NCBI GenBank assembly: GCA_017621815.1 | Contig: JAGASK010000039.1 | Coordinates: 62,001 to 126,000, forward strand | DNA length: 64,000 nt | From: Lachnospiraceae bacterium | Lineage (GTDB): Bacteria; Bacillota; Clostridia; Lachnospirales; Lachnospiraceae | Direction: 5' to 3' | Shown: one piece after another, positions 32,083-37,631 of the stretch | How positions within the stretch are numbered: position 1 is the stretch's first letter | Layout: every line of letters starts with the position of its first letter | Made by a program: the position numbers and the translations under genes | The notes under the pieces: model-generated | Databases searched by the model: none | What the model was told of the DNA's origin: nothing | What the model saw: only the letters and a program-made list of their open reading frames with translations

Positions 32083-32778
32083 CTACACATAAAAGCACTG
32101 ATAATCATCAAGCCTGATACAGCCTAATCTGTTTTTACCAAATGCTTCAGCCCTGTATCCATTAGCGCAGTCAATGCATATTACATTTTTCTTCCGGTTA
32201 TACCAGACAGTATTCTCTTTCTCACTTGCTTCACCCAAGACTTCCCGAATAGCATCAACGGGCGTATGTCCGATAATCGATACATATCCTTCAATTCCAT
32301 TTTTCAGGAAATCAATGTAATCTCTATTATCCTTCGCTCCCATTAAATGATAATGCAAGTCCGCGTCCGCATCCGGCAGAGAGGTCTGGGCATGAGCCAA
32401 AAGAAACTGTTTTCCGGAAGCATTTACTGTAAGCTGAACATCGAGATTGTATATCCAGCTGATAAGATTGGACATATCCACTTCCGTTATCCTCTTTTTA
32501 AGCAGCTCAATCGTGTTGTAATAATATCCTTTATATCTGCCATTAACATAATAATGCAAATGCTCAGCTACCCACGCATCATGATTTCCGCACAGGCATA
32601 TTATATTTTTCTCATATTTCAAAATTTCATAATATAATTCCAGAGGTTTCTCTCCCCTGTCAAAAATATCGCCAACAATATACATTTTATCTTTTTCTGA
32701 AAACTGTATCAGCTTCAGCATCCTGACAAAACTATCATAATCATTATGAATGTCAGAAATGCAATAGGTATATCCCAT
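32083..32778 (-). CDS. PPP-family metallophosphoesterase (PrpE/PphA-like)
   Basis: 231 residues from ATG 32778 (GAGGAAGG upstream; the ATG five codons earlier has its site too close). Phosphoprotein-phosphatase motifs: SDIHND (about 7-12), VGDIFDRGEK (about 36-45), CGNHDAW (about 63-69), LLAHAQTS and IIGHTPVD. The first motif has the D-x-H pair of the metal centre. It could act on phosphoproteins or on dinucleoside polyphosphates. It is the last of a run of minus-strand genes that includes the vWA/pseudokinase/PurA-like module, so a link to that module is possible but not shown; gaps here are 39-46 bases. Confidence 0.9.
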   Translation of the reverse strand: MGYTYCISDIHNDYDSFVRMLKLIQFSEKDKMYIVGDIFDRGEKPLELYYEILKYEKNIICLCGNHDAWVAEHLHYYVNGRYKGYYYNTIELLKKRITEVDMSNLISWIYNLDVQLTVNASGKQFLLAHAQTSLPDADADLHYHLMGAKDNRDYIDFLKNGIEGYVSIIGHTPVDAIREVLGEASEKENTVWYNRKKNVICIDCANGYRAEAFGKNRLGCIRLDDYQCFYV

Positions 32779-32817
32779 ATTATCCTTCCTCATTTTCCTC
32801 TTTTTGAAGCCTTTTTA

Positions 32818-34401: not shown

Positions 34402-35637
34402 TTAATTGCACTTCCCCTGCCTTTCAAAAACATGAAACGCAATCCCCTGCTTTTCACATTCATCCGCAACTTCTTCCAGGGCTCTGGTTTTATCTGCAAA
34501 AATCACCTTATCTCCTGTTTCATCAACATGAGTCAGCCAAAGTGTTATCCTCGTCTGCAATCTATCCTTATTGTCCTTAAGCAGGGTCTCCAGTACTTGC
34601 AAATCCTTCCTGATATACCGGAAAAATTCTTCTCCCCACGGATGCTTTCCATAGCGCAGGGAATCCTGCCATGCATTCGGGACATTAGTAGCATCCTGCA
34701 TATGTGGATTGATATCCGCTTTATCACACTCATAATCCAGTCTTCCTGCACCATGGCGGGTCACATAGGTTCGGGAGATATATGCAATTTCCAAAGACCC
34801 TGAAGCCTCTATTTCCTGCAAAAGCTCCGCTGCATTTGTAAGTCCCGTATGGGAAGGCGTTAAATGAGGATAATATTCCATGTTGCCCATATCCAGCATC
34901 AGTCCCTGGGCATTTTCAAAAACTATGGTATCATATTGTCCTGCCAGCTGTTTCCAATCTGCAAGCACTATATATTTCTTAAAATTATCACACATTCTCA
35001 GGGCTGCATTCCACAAAATATTCTCATCTGCTATCAGTTCCAGCCACTTTTGAATCTCCTGCCGTTCCCACTGCTCCTGATTGCCGGCATGAAGTTCCCT
35101 GATACGCTTACATACATATTCATCTCTTATTTTTAATAATCTGTCCGCAATATCTTCTGTTTCAGCATTTATAAAATCCTTTAAATACAATGCATACTGT
35201 CCATCCCCGGTGCGGCGCAGAGTTTCATATATTCCCATGCCGCAGGAACCATGCTTTTTGCTTCCCCTGACCTGCTCTGTCAAACTGTTCAGAAGCACAT
35301 CGTAAACAGTGGCACAGGCGCAGTCAGAGTGCGCATAAATTTTCACAGAAGCCCCCGCCTTACCTGCCATAACTTTAAAACTCTCTATTTCCTCAGAAAG
35401 CTTCAGCAAATCAGGTATAAAAGTATGGCTCCAATAGGTTGATGCACCTCTCAGGCTGCCACTTCCCAGCTGATGAAAAACAAAACGAAAGCTTCCCTCT
35501 TCCACAGTATGCCCCGCCTGGGCTCCCCCGTTATGGCGCACCACAAGAGCCCTTTTTCCCCGGCAGAACCTGTCAACTGCTGCACCTTTTCCTTCATCTC
35601 CGAAATTTTTACCGATTACCACTTTAATTTCTTTCAT
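34402..35637 (-). CDS. Divergent adenylosuccinate synthetase-like protein
   Basis: 411 residues; TAGGAAAG precedes ATG 35637. The N-terminal GTP-binding loop GKNFGDEGKG (about 9-18) with the catalytic Asp14 and NGGAQAGHT with His43 match PurA. YVTRHGAGRLDYE corresponds to the aspartate-loop region and LTHVDETG to the guanine-specificity part. The IMP/phosphate region, THGSTGRGIGPAYEDK-like in PurA, reads SKKHGSCGMGIYETLRR, and the protein is shorter and irregular elsewhere. It is therefore probably a paralogue using a different acceptor, not the housekeeping enzyme. It is 11 bases after the vWA gene and co-oriented with the zinc-ribbon pseudokinase, not with purine genes. Confidence 0.8.
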   Translation of the reverse strand: MKEIKVVIGKNFGDEGKGAAVDRFCRGKRALVVRHNGGAQAGHTVEEGSFRFVFHQLGSGSLRGASTYWSHTFIPDLLKLSEEIESFKVMAGKAGASVKIYAHSDCACATVYDVLLNSLTEQVRGSKKHGSCGMGIYETLRRTGDGQYALYLKDFINAETEDIADRLLKIRDEYVCKRIRELHAGNQEQWERQEIQKWLELIADENILWNAALRMCDNFKKYIVLADWKQLAGQYDTIVFENAQGLMLDMGNMEYYPHLTPSHTGLTNAAELLQEIEASGSLEIAYISRTYVTRHGAGRLDYECDKADINPHMQDATNVPNAWQDSLRYGKHPWGEEFFRYIRKDLQVLETLLKDNKDRLQTRITLWLTHVDETGDKVIFADKTRALEEVADECEKQGIAFHVFERQGKCN

Positions 35638-35648
35638 GGCATACTTTC

Positions 35649-36575
35649 CTAAAAGAACAGGAAACGCTTTTTCTCTGCTTTCTTTTCAGAAACAGGTCCC
35701 ATTTCCTGCAAAATATGTTTAACTACCTCTGCCGCTTTTCCCTTCCACTGAGCCGTAATGTCAGCAATATCCGCTCCCCTGGCATACTGCATCAGGCTGA
35801 CAAAAATTTCCGGCAGCACATCTAAATCCTCAGGAGCCAGTTCGATTGCTCTGCTGCCGATAAGTTCCCGCCACTTTTCTCCGCTGTGCTGATTCTTATA
35901 AGCCCCCGCTTTCATGACAATATGGAAAATTTCATACTTCAAAGAGGCTTTTTCATAAAGCGCTCTGGCACTGCAGGCATGACTGTTATCTCCAAAAACA
36001 CGCTGAATTTCCTGGAAAGACAGGGAATCATGACAGCACTCATCCCCGATAGTGAAAAGAAAACCTTTTTCCTTTCTCTTATCATAACAATCTATCTTCG
36101 TGTGCTTATCCGCAAAATACCACGAAAGTAAATAAGATTCTCCGCCGTTTCCTCCGCCTCTTCCCTCAAAATATACGTCTAAAAGCTGTTCCGCTATACG
36201 GATATCCGCCTCAAACTGCGTGGTCTGAAGAGGCGCCTGGTCTGTTTTGGAATCCCCGATTGCCTGAAACATAATGTGCGGATTTGTTACCGGTACCTTA
36301 TCATAAATTTCCAGCATTGTCCTGTTTAGTGCACCTTTTGCTATTTCCTCGGATAAATATCCCATAGAACCGGTTACATCCAGTCCGAAAATAACAGCTG
36401 TGGATGCCGGATTATCCATGGAATCGCAGGACTCCCTGTATTTGATCCCATAGGGATTTAAATAATCCTTCATTTGCCTGGATTTGTATAAATCCTGTAC
36501 TGTAGACTGGCTGTTAATATTCCGCGCCGCCCTTAAATTATCCCAATCCTTGCTTTGATAGCTTCCATGTCCCAT
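35649..36575 (-). CDS. vWA-domain protein
   Basis: 308 residues from ATG 36575 (GGAGGG 7 bases upstream; an upstream in-frame ATG overlaps the previous stop region and has no site). The von Willebrand A domain has a MIDAS motif DVTGSMG (Asp66, Thr68, Ser70) after a hydrophobic strand, a Gly-rich loop GRGGGNGGES and FTIGDECCHDSLS. A basic C-terminal tail ends KKAEKKRFLFF. No membrane segment, so the domain is cytosolic, as in the TerY-type vWA proteins of Ter stress clusters. It is bracketed by the pseudokinase gene (24 bases upstream) and the PurA-like gene (11 bases downstream). Confidence 0.88.
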   Translation of the reverse strand: MGHGSYQSKDWDNLRAARNINSQSTVQDLYKSRQMKDYLNPYGIKYRESCDSMDNPASTAVIFGLDVTGSMGYLSEEIAKGALNRTMLEIYDKVPVTNPHIMFQAIGDSKTDQAPLQTTQFEADIRIAEQLLDVYFEGRGGGNGGESYLLSWYFADKHTKIDCYDKRKEKGFLFTIGDECCHDSLSFQEIQRVFGDNSHACSARALYEKASLKYEIFHIVMKAGAYKNQHSGEKWRELIGSRAIELAPEDLDVLPEIFVSLMQYARGADIADITAQWKGKAAEVVKHILQEMGPVSEKKAEKKRFLFF

Positions 36576-36599
36576 TTTTATTCCCTCCGCTTTCATTAT

Positions 36600-37631
36600 T
36601 TATTTTCTTCCGCTGTATATTTCTTCCTCGGTTACGGAAAGTGGAATAAACTTCCGTTCTCCGTAGGATTCTGTTAATACCTTGTCCCATTTTCTGAAAT
36701 CCGCCCTTGCATCCGCTTCCGGCGGAGTAAGAAGGAATTTTCGGAAGGGTGCCGGCAGGAGTTTATCCGCCTTCAACATTTCCCTGTCAGAATACCCTAA
36801 TAAGGCTGACGCTGTCACCCTGATACCTTCAAGGTCCGTCCGGTAACTGTTTCTGCTGCGCTTATCAGCCTGCCTGAATAACAGCCGCCCTTTGGCATTT
36901 TCCAGATAAGGTTTCACATCTGCGGAGGCCCCTGAAATTTCTGCACCGCAAAAACCGGCGAACCACCATCCGCCGTACAAATAAATCTGATGATTTACCG
37001 GATCCGCAAAAAGATTGTCTGCCGTCAGTCCGTTCAGCACCATATCGTTATAATGAAGCAGGCAGCAAAGATTTTCCAGCCTGCTGATTACCCATGCCAC
37101 GTGCCTGTCTAAAAGGATGCCAAGCATCCTTATGGGGTAGGTTCCCTCCCTTTTTTCAATGGCAATAAAAATGCTTCCATCCTCTAATCTGCAGTCTGTT
37201 ACATATTTCGGAACATAGTTTCTTAATTCCTTTTCCATTTCTTCATTGGGATAAGCAATTTTGCCTGTCATATCCAGATAATTCATGGCATACTTTTCAT
37301 ACTGCTTTTCAAATATGTAAATCACATTTTTCCTGGTCACATACATGGTGCAGATATCTGTTTTTCGTTTCGTAAGATAATTGACTTCTATGGTTTCTCC
37401 GTCATTCCGAAGAAACTCTTCCCTGCTTGCTTCCACGAAGAAACCTTCTTCAGGCGCTTTTTTTATCTCCTGATTTAATAAAGCAGAAAACATATTCTGA
37501 AACTGCTCATATAATTTTCTGTCCTGTTCAAATACTGTAGATTTGCTTCCGCAATAGGAACAGACTGCCAGATTTTGCGCCTTATCATAATCCATGGTTC
37601 CTCCGCACATTTTACATTTCAGAATTGCCAT
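36600..37631 (-). CDS. Zinc-ribbon protein with degenerate protein-kinase fold
   Basis: 343 residues; GGGGAGGA precedes ATG 37631. A zinc ribbon is formed by Cys6/Cys9 and Cys24/Cys27. The rest resembles a protein kinase in order: a beta-rich small lobe, a hinge-like IAIEKREGTYPIRML, a helix, then VLNGLTADNLFAD (about 198-210) where kinases have HGxLxPxN, and IYLYGGWW where kinases have DFG. SYRTDLEGIRVTASALLG fits the kinase helix-F region. The catalytic HRD aspartate and the DFG aspartate are missing, so it is predicted to be a pseudokinase. First gene of the compact three-gene unit with vWA and PurA-like proteins. The kinase reading is by pattern only. Confidence 0.75.
   Translation of the reverse strand: MAILKCKMCGGTMDYDKAQNLAVCSYCGSKSTVFEQDRKLYEQFQNMFSALLNQEIKKAPEEGFFVEASREEFLRNDGETIEVNYLTKRKTDICTMYVTRKNVIYIFEKQYEKYAMNYLDMTGKIAYPNEEMEKELRNYVPKYVTDCRLEDGSIFIAIEKREGTYPIRMLGILLDRHVAWVISRLENLCCLLHYNDMVLNGLTADNLFADPVNHQIYLYGGWWFAGFCGAEISGASADVKPYLENAKGRLLFRQADKRSRNSYRTDLEGIRVTASALLGYSDREMLKADKLLPAPFRKFLLTPPEADARADFRKWDKVLTESYGERKFIPLSVTEEEIYSGRK

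Follow-up and report, generated by a model that had tools for sequence, protein, structure and literature searches.

A conserved pseudokinase, vWA-like and PurA-like gene cassette of Clostridia, plasmids and phages as a candidate nucleotide-ligase module

What might a bacterium do with a kinase-like protein that lacks its catalytic aspartates, a vWA-like protein and a relative of adenylosuccinate synthetase (PurA), all encoded side by side? We addressed this question for three genes in a 64,000-nucleotide stretch (the window) of Lachnospiraceae bacterium GCA_017621815.1 (contig JAGASK010000039.1, 62,001-126,000, forward strand), which encode a zinc-ribbon pseudokinase (gene 1), the vWA-like protein (gene 2) and the PurA-like ligase (gene 3). 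An earlier note on this DNA had described three co-oriented genes with gaps of 24 and 11 bases. The open reading frames (ORFs) confirmed this: all three genes lie head to tail on the minus strand, and the gaps take these values with the conserved start of gene 2 (its ORF spans 35649-36596, 315 amino acids (aa), and translation from the conserved MGHGSY start, with its ATG at 36575, gives 308 aa). As far as sequence comparison can tell, the best explanation is that the three genes form one functional unit, a nucleotide-ligase module shared by phages, plasmids and chromosomes. Our preferred account, held tentatively and at somewhat less than an even chance, is a three-gene unit in which a ligase of PurA type would act on a new substrate pair and be held by a non-catalytic vWA/pseudokinase complex.

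Do the three genes belong together? A scan of the genome collection with the vWA protein alone returned 22 loci, of which 20, in records named Lachnospiraceae, Clostridiaceae, Oscillospiraceae or Clostridia, kept all three genes in the same order, a co-conservation beyond chance. The three genes were regular neighbours in these loci, not the rare ones that the earlier note had named as a refutation. The cultured gut bacterium Hungatella effluvii DSM 24995 has a complete cassette as well (L033; loci are cited by L numbers). Decayed remnants with fragments of all three genes were found at L051:7727-8763 and L052:7881-8289, with a downstream gene common to L031 at a similar distance, and the cassette seems to have been lost in place in these relatives. 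In the family sample, 15 of 299 genomes carried the vWA gene; the PurA-like gene adjoined it in 14, and the fifteenth locus ended at a contig edge. The third gene was the pseudokinase in 11 of these genomes, a methionine-rich (Met-rich) protein in three and neither in one. With the pseudokinase as query, 34 of the 299 genomes were listed, 11 with full-length matches and 23 with short or zinc-ribbon-only ones, which were left uncounted. Of 398 genomes in the phylum sample, only the window's own had the cassette, which makes it sparse beyond the family there. In their stored flanks, no more than eight of the 20 intact loci had any sequence cluster in common, and no Pfam family occurred in more than four of the 76 nearest neighbour genes among the 25 of 101 families listed. 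An empty-site comparison between the window and a genome of the same genus (G264) found too little DNA in common.

The cassette extends to plasmids. Among 72,556 plasmid records, 21 carried the vWA gene and 20 of these also a PurA-like gene (counted by organism; accessions were listed for 15 of the 21). Nine plasmid loci contained the pseudokinase in eight cases, the PurA-like gene in eight and the full trio in seven; the exceptions were Rhodovulum, without a PurA-like gene, and Methylorubrum, in which the vWA gene was truncated and no pseudokinase was matched. An ORF annotated 'TonB-dependent receptor' (L067:6001-7029) begins vWA-like and has a tail that reads like a TonB receptor; no PurA-like gene was matched close by, and that cassette looks broken.

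What does gene 3 encode? It matched PF00709 at 8e-33, and its predicted model showed the PurA fold along the entire chain, but against the NCBIfam purA equivalog it reached only 93.3 bits, far below the cut-off of 402, in agreement with the diverged adenylosuccinate-synthetase-like enzyme of the earlier note. A canonical purA on another contig of the genome scored 543.9 bits with PF00709, compared with 112.3 bits for gene 3, which is therefore not the housekeeping enzyme. In a tree of 30 rows, the gene 3 clade (23 rows) was separate from PurA and PurZ with support of 100/99. We compared residues between the 23 clade members, four PurA and three PurZ/PurZ0 sequences. The counterparts of the catalytic residues Asp13, Lys16 and His41 were retained in all 23 members. 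Gln34 and Asn38 were exchanged and Thr129 was replaced by Cys, each in 22 of 23, and in every member Val273 was replaced by His and the TTGR loop by (W/Y/F/H)Q(G/D/E). Gln34, Asn38, Thr129 and Val273 were unaltered in all four PurA, and the latter three also in all three PurZ sequences. We take these four residues to belong to the inosine monophosphate (IMP) pocket and TTGR to be the aspartate loop.

These substitutions bear directly on a simple rival, in which gene 3 would be a second adenylosuccinate synthetase that raises adenosine monophosphate (AMP) under stress or infection, with the vWA and pseudokinase proteins as dedicated chaperones. The retained catalytic residues and full PurA fold agree with such an auxiliary purine supply. 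Nevertheless, residues that are identical in four PurA have been replaced across the clade in both the pocket and the aspartate loop, and the genome already has its canonical purA, and we regard this explanation as quite improbable.

A second rival takes PurZ, the phage member of the same superfamily, as its model: gene 3 would supply phage DNA with a modified purine deoxynucleotide, the bacterial copies being captured phage genes. Most of the gathered PurA-like sequences are indeed viral. In a FastTree phylogeny of 103 sequences, the 12 Clostridia sequences grouped together (0.99) within an otherwise viral set of 25 (0.99), although many deeper supports were low. However, the hallmark of PurZ, Asp13 to Ser (PMC12884076), was absent: position 13 was Ser in all three PurZ/PurZ0 sequences and Asp in all 23 clade members, which did not group with PurZ. 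Moreover, the genes nearest to the Clostridia cassettes showed no common family, and a J-domain pseudokinase (see below) would have no obvious role in making deoxynucleoside triphosphates. We give this rival little credence. The Asp13-keeping clade is labelled '2-aminooxy adenylosuccinate synthetase' in PHROG 1211, and the same label stands in some RefSeq phage records.

How would genes 1 and 2 contribute? The earlier note had seen in gene 1 a zinc-ribbon protein of kinase-like layout without the HRD and DFG aspartates, and this was borne out. The four ribbon cysteines (Table 1) were retained in at least 90% of 31 sequences, whereas the HRD-Asp column held Asp in three of 40 homologues, the DFG-Asp column in one of 40 and both together in none. 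The structure prediction that the note had proposed gave a two-lobed kinase fold, for which the top Foldseek match was the human pseudokinase VRK3 (E 1.6e-7); VRK3, an animal protein, was also among the sequence matches of gene 1 at chance level only (E 0.15), and what it shares with gene 1 is a fold resemblance. Judged by its alignment and predicted structure, gene 1 is a catalytically dead kinase-fold protein. In L003, L006, L007 and most plasmid and phage homologues, the zinc ribbon was swapped for a J-domain-like segment with an HPD motif, although L006 and L007 gave no Pfam DnaJ match in the family J-domain search. A similar ribbon, with about 40-50% identity to that of gene 1 across some 40 residues, also occurred in large ORFs at L013, L014, L015, L018 and others, with several copies close together, in other genomes of the same family.

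Gene 2 was the most conserved member of the trio: across 13 Lachnospiraceae loci (L031-L041, L044, L045) its identity was 74-79%, versus 57-66% for gene 1 and 47-59% for gene 3. The intact metal-ion-dependent adhesion site (MIDAS), which had been noted before, was found again, and its three positions were invariant in an alignment of 35 gene 2 sequences; in a wider set of 23, D66 and S70 were invariant and T68 nearly so. Profile matches were weak and fell to DUF444/YeaH, and the region of YeaH aligned by hhalign was the motif only. No solved vWA structure was among the matches in the profile searches with gene 2. Two or three tandem vWA genes were present in three of the 20 intact Clostridia cassettes, and such tandem arrangements were seen at L047, L049, L050 and L080/L091.

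Table 1. Features of the three-gene cassette in the window
Feature	Coordinates	Strand	Basis
Gene 1, zinc-ribbon pseudokinase, 343 aa	36600..37631	minus	ORF, kinase fold (model), homologues
N-terminal zinc ribbon of gene 1 (C6, C9, C24, C27)	37542..37625	minus	Alignment
Pseudokinase domain of gene 1, residues about 70-338	36618..37424	minus	Model and alignment; LNG at the HRD position, YGG at the DFG position
Gene 2, vWA-like protein, 308 aa from conserved start	35649..36575	minus	ORF, alignment, weak family matches
MIDAS motif DVTGS of gene 2 (D66, T68, S70)	36366..36380	minus	Alignment of 35 sequences
Gene 3, PurA-like ligase, 411 aa	34402..35637	minus	ORF, PF00709, tree, full-length PurA fold
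GDEGKG loop of gene 3, containing the equivalents of E. coli Asp13 (catalytic) and Lys16	35584..35601	minus	Alignment
HNGGAQAGHT segment of gene 3, counterpart of the catalytic His41 kept; Gln34/Asn38 to Asn/Gln	35506..35535	minus	Alignment

Which part of the cassette is the core? Among 50,697 phage records, 206 carried the vWA gene (188 Mycobacterium, 10 Rhizobium, 6 Vibrio and 2 other) and 225 matched the PurA-like protein, some of the latter being ordinary PurA or PurZ. The vWA and PurA-like genes were neighbours in four phage loci. In mycobacteriophage Drazdys (Bixzunavirus Bxz1) the order was 'serine/threonine kinase', vWA, one small gene and PurA-like, the same trio as in the window. No pseudokinase was found anywhere in the records of Vibrio phage Va1, Rhizobium phage TM30 and the faecal phage; the Met-rich protein was encoded directly upstream in Va1 and the faecal phage and one gene upstream in TM30. 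In IMG/VR, 395 of 422 candidate stretches encoded a vWA protein, and we analysed the best 80 of these 395 loci. The PurA-like gene lay within 4 kb of the vWA gene in 77 of the 80, and in 40 of 68 pairs, measured between ORFs, the two were at most 50 bases apart or overlapped. As third gene, 38 loci had the pseudokinase, 13 the Met-rich protein and 29 neither of them, these types being scattered over the FastTree phylogeny; a viral search with the pseudokinase alone gave no match. The strict core is a vWA and PurA-like pair common in phages, with a swappable pseudokinase. The likeliest reading is that phages spread a vWA and ligase pair with an interchangeable third partner, and that the Clostridia cassettes represent one lineage of it.

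Published phage work touches on the same genes. One paper lists a 'serine/threonine kinase' and a 'PurA-like adenylosuccinate synthetase' among the conserved genes of C1 mycobacteriophages, with no further comment in that passage (PMC9476963), and another gives an adenylosuccinate synthase and a VWA protein of Vi01-like phages in separate tables, not as neighbours (PMC10892097). The Met-rich-tailed conserved protein replaced the pseudokinase before the vWA gene at L088:2456-3022, L089:1012-1476 and L090:1015-1596; further places were L053:6222-6935, L054:5741-6568 and L059:6495-7103, and no Pfam match over cut-off was obtained for the three copies scanned. Upstream of the pair in TM30 (L054:270-4269) were genes for a metallophosphatase, a HAD-type hydrolase, PRTase_3 and NUDIX proteins, a set that to us is reminiscent of the Ter nucleoside-biosynthesis module. 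A calcineurin-like phosphoesterase was encoded near the pair in six of the 80 viral loci (L102, L107, L114, L138, L139, L141), five of which also had an ATP-dependent DNA ligase. DNA ligases likewise recurred in six of 80 overall, and some recurrence of neighbours in these loci may therefore reflect ordinary phage gene order.

What substrate might such a ligase use? The neighbourhood offered a recurrent clue in the metabolism of nicotinamide adenine dinucleotide (NAD) and adenosine diphosphate ribose (ADP-ribose). By similarity, an NrtR-like Nudix gene adjoined the cassette in seven of the nine plasmid loci (Alphaproteobacteria 4/5, Actinomycetes 3/3, Betaproteobacterium 0/1), and in two of the 20 Clostridia loci (L041, L045) it lay directly upstream in the same direction. 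Among the six of these genes that were scanned, NrtR_WHD exceeded its cut-off in L041, L045, L055 and L066 and matched weakly (E 0.01-0.05) in L056 and L057; NUDIX exceeded its cut-off in five and fell below it in L066. Regulators of the NrtR type sense ADP-ribose, according to PMC9503650. In the viral loci, NAMPT occurred in nine of 80, NMNAT-NUDIX in six and NADAR in three, together 11 loci; these genes were assigned by clustering, and one NAMPT and one NMNAT-NUDIX representative were verified in Pfam. The NAMPT loci were spread over three or more parts of the PurA-like tree, and in Vibrio phage Va1 a NADAR gene (PF08719, 1e-48) stood immediately before the Met-rich gene. NAD/ADP-ribose neighbours are thus recurrent, not universal, and the link suggests the first substrates to consider for gene 3.

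Phage hosts can defend themselves by deaminating adenine nucleotides (RADAR) or by depleting NAD. A third rival would have the ligase repair purine or NAD-type nucleotides damaged by host immunity, beside NAMPT/NMNAT salvage, with the bacterial copies domesticated. Such phage counter-defence agrees with the abundance of the vWA gene in the IMG/VR stretches, its close pairing with the PurA-like gene and the 11 loci with NAD-related neighbours. On the other hand, the Clostridia cassettes stand alone without a common neighbour, and NAMPT was found beside the pseudokinase variant in none of its 38 viral loci, and we consider this explanation unlikely.

Taken together, a ligase with a new substrate pair that is run or kept by a vWA/pseudokinase complex appears to be the most economical mechanism. 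First, gene 3 would be a neofunctionalised ligase of the PurA family. It very likely keeps PurA chemistry, in which a nucleoside triphosphate (NTP) drives phosphorylation of the 6-oxygen of a 6-oxopurine nucleotide and an amine then replaces it. Second, its substrate pair would differ from IMP and aspartate and would most likely include a nucleotide of NAD/ADP-ribose metabolism or an associated signal. Third, genes 1 and 2 would be non-catalytic. The vWA-like protein, putatively Mg-dependent, would join the pseudokinase, with its zinc ribbon or J-domain, in a scaffold or chaperone-like complex by which the ligase is held, matured or switched. A chaperone-like role is favoured because of the J-domain and because vWA domains are viewed in PMC9503650 as Mg-dependent peptide-binding chaperones. 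Formation of the complex, the substrate and the direction of control are what we infer here.

Several observations weigh against this account. The substrate proposed for gene 3 is conjectural, and gene 2 owes the name vWA-like to its MIDAS motif and to weak profile matches. The clade lacks Lys331 of the guanine site, but so do two of four ordinary PurA, and this residue is thus uninformative on the NTP used. The NAD signal is uneven: NAMPT was present in eight of 13 Met-rich loci, and eight of the nine NAMPT loci were of this type, compared with none of the pseudokinase loci. The other 18 of 20 Clostridia loci had no match to the NrtR-like or NADAR queries, no NAD/ADP-ribose gene was found in the window, and the NrtR-like query found genome-wide only a 68-residue NUDIX stretch elsewhere. 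Finally, the pseudokinase is not essential to the vWA and PurA-like pair, as the 29 viral loci with neither known third gene in their stored flanks (e.g. L111, L119, L124, L125) indicate; 17 of them form one clade, and these pair-only loci may have a further undiscovered partner.

PurA supplies the precursor of AMP, and PurZ serves to rewrite phage DNA. A more far-reaching version of our preferred account would add a third branch to the superfamily: a phage-spread ligase that aminates or amino-acylates the 6-oxopurine of a nucleotide derived from NAD or ADP-ribose, is held and switched by the vWA protein and a J-domain/zinc-ribbon pseudokinase, has ADP-ribose-sensing regulators in bacteria and NAD-salvage genes beside it in phages, and takes part in a phage-host NAD arms race. 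We rate this version as a small chance. If it were true, a widespread third branch with its catalytic residues kept and its pocket changed would imply an unrecognised purine nucleotide, and phage 'adenylosuccinate synthetase' genes with an inherited label (PHROG 1211) may need re-explaining. A conserved bacterial pseudokinase with a known likely partner enzyme would also make the role of bacterial pseudokinases testable. With the vWA gene in 188 Mycobacterium phage records, nearly all from laboratory M. smegmatis, and the cassette in a cultured Hungatella, the product could be searched for directly.

How does the cassette relate to known systems? TerY-P is defined in PMC11090510 by the TerY vWA protein, a PP2C phosphatase and a Ser/Thr kinase whose zinc ribbon is C-terminal, and the earlier note had supposed kinship with it. 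A fourth rival follows from this, namely a stress or defence switch in which the vWA/kinase pair would respond to metal or infection by switching a nucleotide signal. Its merits are that vWA-like and kinase-fold proteins and a zinc ribbon likewise meet in a single operon, that actinobacterial GAP1-N2 systems link kinase, zinc ribbon, vWA and PP2C (PMC7159879), and that a Nudix regulator recurs. The kinship was nevertheless not upheld: no phosphatase was conserved beside the Clostridia cassettes, the kinase is predicted to be dead, and the ribbon is N-terminal. PP2C was not among the 25 of 101 Pfam families listed for the 76 neighbours, for which no search aimed at PP2C was made. In PADLOC, gene 1 had two chance-level matches (E 0.03) and genes 2 and 3 none, and no PADLOC family was matched more than twice at E 1e-10 by the 76 neighbouring genes. 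We therefore find the switch doubtful, with a probability well below that of the preferred ligase account.

The PPP phosphatase that the earlier note had placed at 32083-32778, four genes away, as a possible completing part was not supported either. Its ORF runs from 32083 to 32793, with two genes between it and the PurA-like gene. A tblastn comparison with the flanks stored for the 20 intact cassettes gave no relative (E 1e-3) for it, for the glyoxalase-like gene (32818) or for the unknown gene (33245). ABC and response-regulator genes, also considered as parts, matched these flanks only at scattered, unrelated positions. In phages a phosphatase link may exist, given the six loci with a calcineurin-like phosphoesterase, which belongs to another cluster, and the one annotated upstream in TM30. 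What remains of the earlier reading is a conserved pseudokinase/vWA/PurA-like unit with a kinase fold; kinship with TerY-P and completion by the PPP phosphatase were not supported. Its remark that the exact set lacked a description also stands, in that no pseudokinase, vWA and PurA-like set was found in the open-licence literature.

Every recognised part of the cassette belongs to a known superfamily. In some neighbourhoods, ARG systems (PMC9503650) likewise pair a vWA gene with a Nudix-sensor regulator, in an ADP-ribose context; the text of that paper does not contain 'adenylosuccinate', 'PurA' or 'pseudokinase', and no ADP-ribosylglycohydrolase, which was not searched for, was noticed in our loci. 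PMC12884076 describes 481 viral PurA homologues with a PurA and a PurZ group, and its section 24 is silent on the gene 3 clade; by subtraction (767-251-151), 365 of 767 sequences lie outside both groups. Gene 3 shares with PurA the modelled whole-chain fold and catalytic residues but differs in its separate clade, its pocket and loop and the presence of a canonical purA elsewhere in the genome; PurZ/PurZ0, phage 2-amino-adenylosuccinate synthetases, are likewise PurA-superfamily ligases carried by phages and differ at position 13. Compared with TerY-P, the cassette has a dead kinase in place of an active one and no conserved PP2C, carries its ribbon at the N-terminus or a J-domain instead, and adds a PurA-like ligase.

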